Shown: positions 42,383 through 47,633 of the stretch, piece by piece
How positions within the stretch are numbered: the stretch's first letter is position 1
Layout of the letters: each line of letters opens with the position of its first letter
Source of the DNA: Candidatus Bathyarchaeota archaeon
Lineage (GTDB): Archaea; Thermoproteota; Bathyarchaeia; Bathyarchaeales; Bathycorpusculaceae
Length of the DNA stretch: 64,000 bases
Assembly (NCBI GenBank): GCA_026014735.1
Contig: JAOZHT010000001.1
Coordinates: forward strand, 992,001-1,056,000
Direction of reading: 5' to 3'
Made by a program: the position numbers and the translations under genes
The notes under the pieces: model-generated
What the model was told of the DNA's origin: nothing
Seen by the model: only the letters and a program-made list of their open reading frames with translations
Databases searched by the model: none

Positions 42383-43375
<993 letters not shown>

Positions 43376-43377
43376 AC

Positions 43378-45597
43378 CTAAGTTGAGTTGAATCGGTCGA
43401 ATGCGGTTAGGTTGCTCATGGAGCCGCAAGATGGGCATTTATGCAGGGTGCCAAAGTAGTTTTTCTTGCAGTTGCCACAGAAGCTTACCGCGCGGTTATA
43501 GCTGAAGAATTCGCTGGCTTGGTTGTCGATGATTCGCTTCGTTAAATCCAGAAGGGCATCTGCGCTGTATTCGCCGTCGCCCTCCAATTCGAGAATGTCA
43601 AGGCTGCCTCCGCCTAAAAGGCCCTTGGTGAGCTGCGCATTCTCCACGGTGCCGACGGGAGCAAGCAGGGTCGGGGCAGGCTTGATTTGGAGGCGCTTAA
43701 GCGTGCTGTAGTAGGGTTTGTCGCGGGTGCCTGAAAACTTGACTTTGGCTACGCCGAAGCGTTCAATATCCAATTGTGCAAGGCGCTCGGCGGCTTCGCG
43801 GTTGCCCAAGATGGCGGGGTAGAGGCGTTTGCCGTATTTTCTGCCCAGCTTCTGCCGAAACGCAAGCAGTCCAGCGATGACTTCCTCGGCGAACTGGCGG
43901 GTCTCCGGGGCACTGATGGCTTTGCCCGTGAAGGCTTCAGCGGCTTCACAGAACCCCGCCAAATTCACGATACGCGAGCAATGCTCCAAGCGGAAGTACA
44001 CGTCTCCGTTGGATTTCTGGAGCAGAAACGGAAGCGAGTTTTTGCCGAATTGCTTAAGCGCGTTGTTCTTGATGCCTAAGGCGCGGGCGGAAAGCTCAAA
44101 GCGCTCCTTGAAGATGTCGAGGAACTTGTTTTTGTCGCCCTCGCATTCCAAAACGATGCGGGGCAAATTGATGGTGACGCAGCCAAGGCAGCCGGTGCGC
44201 AACGTGTCGGTTTCCCAGTCGCCTGTGAGGTCAGATGAGAATTTAACGCCTGAAGACGAGTAAGCCCAGTTCTCCGCGTCCCTTTTGGTTAGGTTAGCAA
44301 AGTAGGGGGCTCCGCCCTGCGCCGCCAACCTGTGAGCTTTAAGCAGCAGCACACGGGCGGCTTCGTCTTCGAAGGCGCTGGGGGTGACTCGTATGATGAG
44401 TTTGGGGTTAAGCAACGGTTTTTTGGCGTTCTCCTCAAGAAAAACATCCAAAATCAGGGACGCTAAAAGGCGGCTCTCCACCGCGTAGTCGCCGTATTTA
44501 CCCACTGATTTGCCAGCTGGACCGAAGGCTTCTTTCTCCGCGGTGGACTTAGAAACATCCAGCTCCAACCCCAAGGCTGCATCGACATGCTGGTTGAGGT
44601 TAAGTATGAAGAGCCGCAGGTTCTCTTTAAGTTTGGCTACGTCATTACCCCTCGCGAATGGCGCCAGCGAGAGGTTGAAGTAGTTGAAGGCTTGGCTGCG
44701 GCTGGTTTCTCGGCTGGCATGCAAGAGCACGTTGAAGGCGGTGCAGAGGGCAGATTTGAAGTCGGTGGGAGGCGCCATCTGGGCCTGCTGGGCAACGTCG
44801 GGTTGGATACCGTGTACAAAGAAGTAGCGCAGTTCATGCACGACTTCGCTGGGTTTAAGCAGCCATGTGCCGAGGCTGTCGATGTGGATGGCGCCGCTCA
44901 GATGCGCATCAGAGATGTCGCGTGGAAAAATGTTAAGCAGGGTATACTCGCTTATCACTGCTTGCCCCGCGCGGCTGATGGCAACGCTGCAATCGAGGTC
45001 GGCGTCTCGGGACTCAATCAGGACGGTAACTTCATGCACAGGCATCCCCACACGCGTGAGTTTATGGCGGTAGTCCTCATAGCCCTTCTCGACGAGGATA
45101 CCGTTCACGACTTCGCGGATAAGTGAAGCAGTAAGATACTTGGTTTTGGATTTCACCAATCGCTTCTCGGTTTCTTTAGCGGCTTTCTGCGCCAACTCCG
45201 CAGGCACCTTGGCTTCTTTGATGAGGGAATTAGCGATTTTGTTGGCGTCAAACTCCTCCAACGTCAGATGCGAAGTCCGCACAAGCATACCTTTAGGCTT
45301 GACGGCTTTCTTTTCAACGCGGTCCGCCACATCCAAAACCATCTTGCCAAGGTCAGTAAGGTAATACTTTTTGGATTCCACATCCGCCTCCACCAACCCG
45401 GCTTTAAGGAGAAACTTGAGGTGATAAGCGAATCTGCCTGCGTCTCGGCTGGGATTCATCTTGAGCTGCGCCATAAGTTCGCTGTAGCTGAGGGCGCTTT
45501 TGTCAAAGAGCCAATTTAGAATCTGCAGACGCATCGGTGAGGATACGGCTTTAAGAACCTTGACGCCGCGGCTGCGAGTTGGCTGAGCATTAACCAT
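43378..45597 (-). CDS. Winged helix - ATP cone - NrdD-like protein lacking the radical glycine
   Basis: This 739-residue protein has an ArsR-like winged helix at about residues 10-90 (SSPMRLQILNWLF, MNPSRDAGRFAYHLKFLLKAGLVEAD), an ATP-cone domain at about 100-195 (HLTLEEFDANKIANSLIKEAKV, TASLIREVVNGILVEKGYEDY), and an anaerobic ribonucleotide reductase (NrdD)-like body with RTGCLGCVTINLPRI. The zinc site Cys707, 710, 721, 724 is present, but the protein ends 15 residues later. The glycyl-radical motif (RVTGY-type) is missing: the last residues DRFNST align with it with Ser at the radical position. Downstream DNA holds only pyrB, so no lost tail exists. It may be a nucleotide-sensing regulator rather than an enzyme. 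No NrdG activase is adjacent. Confidence 0.85.
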   Translation of the reverse strand: MVNAQPTRSRGVKVLKAVSSPMRLQILNWLFDKSALSYSELMAQLKMNPSRDAGRFAYHLKFLLKAGLVEADVESKKYYLTDLGKMVLDVADRVEKKAVKPKGMLVRTSHLTLEEFDANKIANSLIKEAKVPAELAQKAAKETEKRLVKSKTKYLTASLIREVVNGILVEKGYEDYRHKLTRVGMPVHEVTVLIESRDADLDCSVAISRAGQAVISEYTLLNIFPRDISDAHLSGAIHIDSLGTWLLKPSEVVHELRYFFVHGIQPDVAQQAQMAPPTDFKSALCTAFNVLLHASRETSRSQAFNYFNLSLAPFARGNDVAKLKENLRLFILNLNQHVDAALGLELDVSKSTAEKEAFGPAGKSVGKYGDYAVESRLLASLILDVFLEENAKKPLLNPKLIIRVTPSAFEDEAARVLLLKAHRLAAQGGAPYFANLTKRDAENWAYSSSGVKFSSDLTGDWETDTLRTGCLGCVTINLPRIVLECEGDKNKFLDIFKERFELSARALGIKNNALKQFGKNSLPFLLQKSNGDVYFRLEHCSRIVNLAGFCEAAEAFTGKAISAPETRQFAEEVIAGLLAFRQKLGRKYGKRLYPAILGNREAAERLAQLDIERFGVAKVKFSGTRDKPYYSTLKRLQIKPAPTLLAPVGTVENAQLTKGLLGGGSLDILELEGDGEYSADALLDLTKRIIDNQASEFFSYNRAVSFCGNCKKNYFGTLHKCPSCGSMSNLTAFDRFNST

Positions 45598-45703
45598 AAG
45601 CTGTCTCTCCCTTTGCGCCCAAATGTGTGGTGCTCTACCTATTATTCCACTGGAGAGTTTAAACTTAACGAAAAAACACGGCTAACGCTGTGGTGTTTGA
45701 CGT

Positions 45704-46750
45704 TCAGGCGGGGCAGGGCTGCTGCTGGCTGATGCAGTGCAGGGTACCAAAACCGTAGACGAGGTCCTTGCAGCATATGCCGACGACTTTGCGGGTGGGA
45801 AACATCTCCTGCAGAATCGCCAGCGCCTTTTCATCGTTGGGGTCATCAAAGACGGGCACCAGCACTTTGGTGTTGCCGATGTAGAAGTTGGTGTAGCTGG
45901 CGGGTAACTGTTCGCCTTCGTCGCTGACGACTTTAGGCATTGGCAGCTTGATGACGCGGAGTTTGTGGCCGTCCTGGTCAGTGGCATCGCAGAGAACCGC
46001 ATAGTTTTCCTGCAGAGCCCCAAAATCCGCTTCGCCGGCGTCATCTTGGTAGGCACAGACCACAGTGCGCGGATCGACGAACCTTGCCAAATCATCTATG
46101 TGCCCGTCGGTGTCGTCACCGAGGATGCCGCGTTTAAGCCAGATGAAGTGGGTGACGCCCAGAAAATCGGAGAGGTACTGCTCGATTCGCTCTTTAGTCA
46201 GGTCAGGGTTGCGGTTGCTGTTTAGCAGGCACTGCTCAGTCGTAAGCAGGGTGCCTTCGCCGTTGACGTCTATGCTGCCGCCCTCCAAAACGATGCCGGG
46301 CCTAAAACAGCGCAGCTTCATTTTTTGGTTGATGAATGCAGGGATTTCTTTGTCTTTTAGCAGCGTCTCATATTTTTCGCCCCAGCTGTTAAAGTCCCAA
46401 TGAATCATTGCTAGCTCGTGGCGGGGGTTGCGGACAAAGATCGGGCCGTAGTCGCGGAACCACACATCCGCATAATCCGTGACGTAGATATCTACTTTGG
46501 AGAGGTCGATTCCTGCGGCCTGAAAGAGGCGGAGGACCTTTTTCTTGGTAGGTTCATCTATGACAAAGAGGTTCACGTGCTCGCTTTCATGGATTTCCCC
46601 AACGATCTGCACGTAGGTAGCTTCCACCTTCTCGACGCGGTCGGGGAAAGTTGTGGGGTCATAGGGCCAAGCCAGCCAAATCGCGTCGTGGCGCTGCCAC
46701 TCGGCGGGCATGTAGAAGCCCAGTTTGCGGCATTCATTTGGGCTATTCAT
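45704..46750 (-). CDS. aguA: Agmatine deiminase
   Basis: The 348-residue protein is a guanidino-group-modifying enzyme of the porphyromonas-type peptidylarginine deiminase fold. It has the substrate WLAWPYDPTTFPDRVEKVEATY, then VWFRDYGPIFVRN, VLEGGSIDVNGEGTLLTTEQCLLN, LGDDTDGHIDDLARFV and the catalytic Cys339 in GTLHCISQQQPCPA. It converts agmatine to N-carbamoylputrescine. The next gene (aguB) completes the route and overlaps it by eight bases, so the pair is coupled. Such genes are bacterial-type and rare in archaea. Confidence 0.96.
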   Translation of the reverse strand: MNSPNECRKLGFYMPAEWQRHDAIWLAWPYDPTTFPDRVEKVEATYVQIVGEIHESEHVNLFVIDEPTKKKVLRLFQAAGIDLSKVDIYVTDYADVWFRDYGPIFVRNPRHELAMIHWDFNSWGEKYETLLKDKEIPAFINQKMKLRCFRPGIVLEGGSIDVNGEGTLLTTEQCLLNSNRNPDLTKERIEQYLSDFLGVTHFIWLKRGILGDDTDGHIDDLARFVDPRTVVCAYQDDAGEADFGALQENYAVLCDATDQDGHKLRVIKLPMPKVVSDEGEQLPASYTNFYIGNTKVLVPVFDDPNDEKALAILQEMFPTRKVVGICCKDLVYGFGTLHCISQQQPCPA

Positions 46751-47633
46751 CGTTGGTATCCGCCTGCTTCTCGGTGAGTTTCTGGTAGATGTCGGGGCGG
46801 CGGTTTCGCAGAAAACCCCAGCCCTCCTGGATCTGCCGATTCATAGCCAAATCAACCTTGACGATTAGCACTTCCTCCTGGGTTGTGCTGGCTTCTGCGA
46901 GAACCTTGCCGAATGCGTCACAGACAAAGCTGCCGCCCCAAAACTCCAACTCGCCTTCCTCGCCGACGCGGTTCACCGCCGCCACATGCACCCCGTTTGC
47001 GATGGCGTGGCTGCGCTGCACGGTTCGCCATGCATCATGCCAGTCGCCGTCCGCCGACGTATAACCTTTGACGTAGCCGATTGCCGTGGGATAGAGGAGG
47101 ATTTCCGCGCCCTGCAACGTATTGATGCGGGCGGCTTCGGGGAACCACTGGTCATAGCAGATGAGCACCCCGATTTTGGCGCAGCCCACATCGTAGACCC
47201 GGTAGGGCTCAGTGCCCGCTTCAAAATAGTTCTTCTCGTAAAAATATGGGTCGTAGGGCACGTGGATTTTACGGTAAACCCCAAGTATTTTGCCGTCGAC
47301 GCCGATGACTGCGGCGGAATTGTAGAATTTGCCGTCGCTGCCCTTCTCAAAAAGCGGCGCAACAATGACGACGCCATGCTGCTTTGCCAGTTTGCATAGG
47401 GCATCGGTGGATTCGCCGGGAATGGTCTCCGCCAAACCTGCCACGTCACGGTGCTCCTCTTGGGGGAAGTACTGTGTGCGGTAGAGTTCCTGCAGGCAGA
47501 TGATTTGGGCGCCTTGATGGGCGGCTTGCTCGATCATGCGCAGGGTCTTGTGCATGTTCTCCGCTATGTTTTCTGAGGCTGCGGTTTGGATTAAGGCGAC
47601 TGTGACGGTTTTGGGGGGGTTTAAGTTGGCTAT
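46743..47633 (-). CDS. aguB: N-carbamoylputrescine amidase, start at ATA likely
   Basis: The nitrilase-fold enzyme hydrolyses N-carbamoylputrescine to putrescine. Catalytic residues are seen: Glu in CLQELYRTQYF, Lys in YRKIHVPYDP, and Cys in GVLICYDQWFPEAARI. The ATG at 47555 (MHKTLRM) would remove the first conserved strand of the family; the same frame continues upstream with TVTVALIQTAASENIAEN, and no ATG, GTG or TTG precedes it. AAGGATGG (47641-47648) stands seven bases before an in-frame ATA at 47633, giving 296 residues, the usual length. Only this start fits the family. Confidence 0.93.
   Translation of the reverse strand: MANLNPPKTVTVALIQTAASENIAENMHKTLRMIEQAAHQGAQIICLQELYRTQYFPQEEHRDVAGLAETIPGESTDALCKLAKQHGVVIVAPLFEKGSDGKFYNSAAVIGVDGKILGVYRKIHVPYDPYFYEKNYFEAGTEPYRVYDVGCAKIGVLICYDQWFPEAARINTLQGAEILLYPTAIGYVKGYTSADGDWHDAWRTVQRSHAIANGVHVAAVNRVGEEGELEFWGGSFVCDAFGKVLAEASTTQEEVLIVKVDLAMNRQIQEGWGFLRNRRPDIYQKLTEKQADTNDE

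Follow-up and report, generated by a model that had tools for sequence, protein, structure and literature searches.

The locus described here lies in a 64,000-nucleotide stretch of a Candidatus Bathyarchaeota genome (the window) and centres on a reverse-strand gene whose product combines an N-terminal winged helix, an ATP-cone and a body related to class III ribonucleotide reductase (RNR). We refer to this protein family as WAN, from winged helix, ATP-cone and NrdD. The gene, its parts and its immediate surroundings are as follows.

43378..45597, reverse strand: WAN gene (winged helix, ATP-cone, apparently dead NrdD), 739 aa plus stop, ATG start, protein end ..DRFNST
45334..45558, reverse strand: ArsR-type winged helix-turn-helix, residues 14-88 (Pfam HTH_5/DUF7347; H-H-H-E-E pattern in the AlphaFold2 model)
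45013..45285, reverse strand: ATP-cone, residues 105-195, predicted nucleotide-sensing domain (Pfam ATP-cone)
44962..45012, reverse strand: linker at the position of the NxN substrate flap of active NrdD, motif lost (family alignment)
44875..44886, reverse strand: HxHD triphosphate-binding motif degenerated to H238-I-D-S (intact in 1/138 WAN)
44845..44847, reverse strand: E251 where NrdD has its second active-site Cys (T4 C79; Cys in 0/138 WAN, 20/20 NrdD)
44245..44250, reverse strand: G450-V451 replacing the finger-loop Cys-Cys that includes the thiyl radical Cys (family alignment)
43426..43479, reverse strand: zinc site C707, C710, C721, C724, retained (kept in 132-133 of 138)
43381..43425, reverse strand: 15-residue tail, ending before the glycyl-radical Gly-Tyr motif (comparison with congeners and NrdD)
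45655..45670, reverse strand: BRE/TATA-like promoter CGTTAAGTTTAAACTC of the WAN gene, conserved and common to f1 relatives
42389..43375, forward strand: pyrB (aspartate carbamoyltransferase), convergent neighbour, kept in the window's family f1

The two same-strand genes next upstream of WAN (window 45704-47555) resemble agmatine deiminase and N-carbamoylputrescine amidase when their sequences are inspected by eye.

The domain order proposed in a preliminary description of this DNA, a winged helix followed by an ATP-cone and a class III RNR-like body, is borne out by Pfam and by AlphaFold2/Foldseek. Above the gathering cut-offs, Pfam assigns DUF7347 to residues 14-89 (32.8 bits), HTH_5/ArsR to residues 20-70 (29.9 bits, cut-off 22), ATP-cone PF03477 to residues 105-177 (30.4 bits) and NRDD to residues 207-732 (197.7 bits). 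The NCBIfam NrdD equivalog scores 209.9 bits, far under its cut-off of 326, and the metalloregulator model NF033788 reaches 32.4 bits, under its cut-off of 55. The NrdR model TIGR00244 gives no match to the protein. The AlphaFold2 model, derived from 44 aligned sequences, has a mean pLDDT of 86.8, and Foldseek retrieves class III RNRs as its top PDB matches (E 2.9e-26). The predicted fold aligns with these at target-normalised TM scores of 0.7-0.76, up to 0.76 for T. maritima NrdD and 0.74 for T4 NrdD. Homology to class III RNR (PF13597, the barrel) is present by sequence as well as in the model. Members from ammonia-oxidizing archaea also exceed the Pfam cut-offs for HTH/DUF7347, ATP-cone and NRDD.

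The winged helix and the cone are the best conserved parts of the protein. Mean major-residue fractions for winged helix, cone and body are 0.73, 0.75 and 0.53 across all WAN members, and 0.82, 0.80 and 0.60 among those of Bathyarchaeia. The recognition-helix region of the winged helix, DAGRFAYHLK, is near-invariant across Bathyarchaeia WAN and ranks among the most conserved stretches. In the cone, V106, R107, I121, L159-E162 and T181-R182 are among the residues common to WAN and active NrdD.

The catalytic positions were compared between 138 aligned WAN members and 20 true NrdD sequences from the same archaea. The equivalent of T4 C79, which is E251 in the window, is Cys in none of the WAN members and in all 20 NrdD, and the first finger-loop Cys is distributed in the same way (0/138 versus 20/20). 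The second finger-loop Cys, which carries the thiyl radical, is found in 24/138 WAN versus 20/20 NrdD, and among WAN relatives its position is taken by Cys, Leu, Val, Phe, Ile, Thr or Ser. The NxN flap and the HxHD motif are substrate-binding features of NrdD (PMC11226230); in WAN the flap is lost and HxHD is intact in a single member, with H-I-D-S in the window. Gly occupies the radical position in 9/138 WAN, never alongside both catalytic Cys, and the 138-member alignment reveals no radical Gly elsewhere in the protein. No member of the alignment has a working catalytic set, whereas the lost motifs exist in nearly all of the compared NrdD rows. Among the features that are kept are the zinc cysteines (132-133 of 138) and the NLPR motif (N in 137/138, R in 136/138).

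The preliminary description had also located the zinc site at Cys707/710/721/724 and the stop 15 residues past C724, before the radical Gly, and both observations are correct; the radical Gly-Tyr is absent. Because about 30 congeners terminate much alike (TLTTFDRFxST), the short C-terminus is not a sequencing error, and a frameshift or missing C-terminus was ruled out on the same grounds. At four f23 loci (L187, L206, L207 and L208) WAN is only about 590-600 aa long and the zinc region is missing at the C-terminus in the alignment, the reductase body being reduced further. The sequence comparison strongly supports the view that WAN is a catalytically dead class III reductase fold, as had been proposed, with losses of catalytic and substrate motifs exceeding those first described.

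Our survey covered genomes of one archaeal phylum. A search for the same domain order, using a winged helix plus cone model, matched 190/299 genomes sampled across the phylum and 140/163 genomes of the class, and full-length WAN matched 88/88 near-complete relatives. Each of the best 80 named matches is a Bathyarchaeia-type record, and several are deposited as Nitrososphaerota or Crenarchaeota. In a phylogenetic tree, one branch parts WAN from NrdD with a support of 100/100, in a topology whose root is not fixed and in which the ammonia-oxidizer sequences sit on long branches. By these comparisons, WAN is old and long conserved in the phylum.

In 12 of the 30 compared Bathyarchaeia genomes, all belonging to families f4, f6 and f7, WAN lies directly upstream of a true nrdD on the same strand, and the same order occurs at f2, f59 and f60 loci. 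The NrdD encoded downstream of WAN is of three types. Some of these loci (L110, L112, L116, L121 and L048) carry a small glutaredoxin-like gene (TIGR02196/02194-like, below cut-off) between WAN and nrdD, which suggests a glutaredoxin-dependent NrdD subtype in those Bathyarchaeia. No RNR gene lies near WAN in the compared genomes of f1, the window's family, or of f8, f9 and f3.

A second type of linkage involves class II RNR. Archaeal AmoA was found in 13/13 tested genomes of families f18, f48 and f45, which we therefore take to be ammonia oxidizers. WAN is directly followed by nrdJ in 38 of the 39 f18 genomes in which both genes were located, the exception lying at a contig end, and in 5/5 f48/f45 genomes. 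The nrdJ next to WAN scores 740 bits with TIGR02504 (cut-off 400), and one Bathyarchaeia-class genome (L197) has the WAN-nrdJ order too. One profile search did not find a true NrdD in these three families; the single NrdD-model match is weak, at the strength expected of WAN, and is taken to be WAN itself. The intergenic gap between WAN and the RNR gene is often about 200-250 nt, and the RNR genes apparently have their own promoter.

These gaps contain conserved elements. In WAN-to-nrdD gaps, TACARAATTTTATAC lies about 15 nt upstream of the BRE/TATA-like sequence CTAAAAATTTTAAGTA. The 15-mer is found with at most one mismatch in 6/6 f6 and f7 representatives, a conservation that the relatedness of the genomes inflates, while in 60 dinucleotide shuffles no 15-mer was common to more than two of the six. 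Some f6 and f7 loci have a further element, ATGTCAATTT, which precedes TACARAATTTTATAC at an identical spacing of 23 nt. The clear gap segments shared by f6 and f7 are TACARAATTTTATAC with the promoter and, in some loci, ATGTCAATTT. In one genome where WAN and nrdD are far apart (G124), TACARAATTTTATAC still precedes the nrdD match by about 230 nt, and another copy lies behind WAN; an extra match (94075) falls in coding DNA and was taken as chance. The nrdD genes of f9 and f8 (L263-L269) have a different conserved AT-rich upstream stretch, TCTAATTTTTTGATAATTAAATTTAAGTTTTTGTA, which cannot be aligned to the f6/f7 element.

Among the ammonia oxidizers, nearly all f18 genomes read carry an inverted-repeat-like element, GKTGTHAA-N5-TTGA, in the WAN-nrdJ gap, and a TATA-like box follows it after roughly 25-45 nt. 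Exact TACARAATTTTATAC usually occurs once per genome, at nrdD, and GKTGTHAA..TTGA is less specific genome-wide, counts that are partly circular because both patterns were read off the same regions. A recurring second match of the ammonia-oxidizer element lies in coding DNA and was taken as chance. The Bathyarchaeia and ammonia-oxidizer elements are different motifs that have only TGTCAA in common.

The arrangement is different in f1, to which the window genome belongs. The only active RNR found in the window genome is encoded by an intact, bacterial-type nrdR-nrdD-nrdG operon (L031:698-3961; G000:C1, about 600.5-603.8 kb) with NrdR-box-like paired palindromes upstream, and no NrdJ was found in this genome. 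The nrdG activase gene belongs to this separate operon and not to that of WAN. The coexistence of a functional NrdD/NrdG pair with the unusual protein, a question raised by the preliminary description, is thus answered in the affirmative. The palindrome pairs that precede nrdR in f1 are located downstream of a TATA-like box; they look like NrdR boxes and are assigned to NrdR, and for this resemblance they were rejected as WAN targets. Neither of the two RNR-linked elements precedes WAN or nrdRDG in f1, and the sole near-match in the window genome lies inside a coding frame and was rejected as an operator. NrdR (TIGR00244 over cut-off) is confined to f1 and one f7 genome, and this limited distribution suggests that the nrdR-nrdD-nrdG operon of f1 was laterally gained. 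The convergent order of pyrB and WAN is kept in at least 72 loci and probably reflects synteny outside the mechanism considered here.

We consider it likely that WAN is a dNTP/ATP-sensing transcription regulator of RNR genes, an archaeal counterpart of bacterial NrdR derived from an inactive class III reductase. In this reading, a class III RNR kept its nucleotide-binding architecture (ATP-cone, barrel and zinc domain), lost catalysis and gained an N-terminal ArsR-type winged helix. In NrdR, the oligomer is determined by adenine nucleotides bound to the cone, and with it the distance between the DNA-binding domains (PMC9110341, PMC12176259). Binding of ATP or dATP to the cone of WAN would similarly change its oligomer and set the spacing of its DNA-binding domains, while the reductase-like body may provide dimerization and perhaps specificity-site reading of other dNTPs. 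This oligomer switch would govern whether the winged helix binds predicted sites that lie close to the nrdD or nrdJ promoter, on its upstream side. The location of the predicted site upstream, not downstream, of the TATA-like box fits either activation or repression. In f1, nrdD would have come under NrdR.

A nucleotide-sensing, NrdR-like transcription factor had already been suggested in the preliminary description. In terms of genomic context it is well supported, by the linkage to RNR genes, the promoter elements and the lack of NrdR in most of these genomes. It fares less well in f1, where WAN is not beside an RNR gene and where a bona fide NrdR and NrdR-like boxes are present. At the biochemical level, DNA binding by WAN, the identity of its sites, the nucleotide sensed and the sign of regulation are what we infer here, and a different regulator could be the one that uses the shared promoter element.

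The genomic linkage would fit equally well a non-catalytic regulatory subunit that assembles with NrdD or NrdJ into mixed oligomers and adjusts their activity allosterically, with the winged helix serving dimerization or protein contact. Retention of the cone and reductase fold is consistent with such a role. However, WAN adjoins two different RNR classes, which makes one conserved subunit contact unlikely, and the strong conservation of the recognition-helix region, the conserved DNA elements at RNR promoters and the apparent presence of a separate promoter for the RNR gene all speak against such a subunit. We regard a subunit as an unlikely identity for WAN. In f1 at least, WAN may instead regulate a different pathway (pyrimidine synthesis and a general growth regulon are examples), with RNR adjacency being secondary; there the conserved neighbour is pyrB, nrdRDG has NrdR-like boxes and no RNR-linked element was found at an RNR gene of the window genome (G000). 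As an account of WAN as a whole this appears improbable: being convergent with WAN, pyrB does not lie behind a promoter region that WAN would regulate, and the linkage to RNR genes is found again in lineages that are far apart and differ in RNR class.

Two further readings concern the protein itself. The retained barrel, NLPR motif and zinc site would suit an enzyme that relies on an external radical or on different chemistry, but the catalytic residues (thiyl Cys, partner Cys and radical Gly) and the substrate motifs (NxN flap and HxHD) have either disappeared or vary, and the finger-loop residue changes freely from one WAN relative to another, leaving this with very little credibility. A decaying nrdD copy or an assembly error would account for a C-terminus that is short compared with NrdD and has almost nothing else to commend it. 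The frame is open in nearly all of the matches listed, WAN is present in every near-complete relative and across the phylum, and the winged helix and cone are conserved; this conservation refutes a pseudogene.

As a putative regulator, WAN shares several features with known systems while differing from each. Like NrdR (TIGR00244), a repressor of RNR genes, it joins an ATP-cone to a DNA-binding domain, its gene commonly adjoins RNR genes and it is predicted to read ATP/dATP. In contrast to NrdR, its DNA-binding domain is a winged helix instead of an N-terminal zinc ribbon, it includes the whole of an inactive NrdD, so that the protein has about 740 aa versus 150 for NrdR, it is archaeal, and the elements linked to it are not NrdR boxes; the window genome encodes both proteins. 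WAN has the homologous ATP-cone, barrel fold and zinc site of NrdD, but lacks the radical Gly, thiyl and partner Cys, NxN flap and HxHD, carries the extra winged helix and occurs in ammonia oxidizers without NrdD. Its N-terminal domain exceeds the family cut-off for ArsR/SmtB (HTH_5; DUF7347), although WAN is not a small stand-alone metal sensor but a 739-residue protein with an RNR-derived effector part. Enzyme-derived transcription regulators such as BirA and PutA combine an enzyme fold with a DNA-binding domain, placing their own pathway under metabolite control, and keep catalysis. WAN, by contrast, stems from a glycyl-radical reductase and has lost its catalytic residues.

In the literature searched, with most subscription papers outside its reach, no description of a winged helix - ATP-cone - NrdD protein was found. 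With somewhat more reserve, we lean towards WAN being an undescribed, phylum-wide family of DNA-binding proteins that use a whole dead RNR to sense dNTPs, control active reductases of two classes and persist in aerobic ammonia oxidizers without NrdD, the anaerobic parent enzyme.

To our knowledge, no dedicated RNR regulator other than NrdR is known. Archaea rarely have NrdR (PMC9110341), in agreement with its distribution here, whereas WAN is phylum-wide. This rarity leaves in question how most archaea balance their dNTP supply against demand through gene regulation, and WAN provides a candidate across much of the phylum, including the ammonia-oxidizing archaea, where such a role is testable. 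In most archaea of the phylum, WAN is probably a sensor that sets the output of DNA precursors. If so, a glycyl-radical reductase would have been reused as a pure sensor, one that may keep the allosteric logic of RNR with its chemistry lost.
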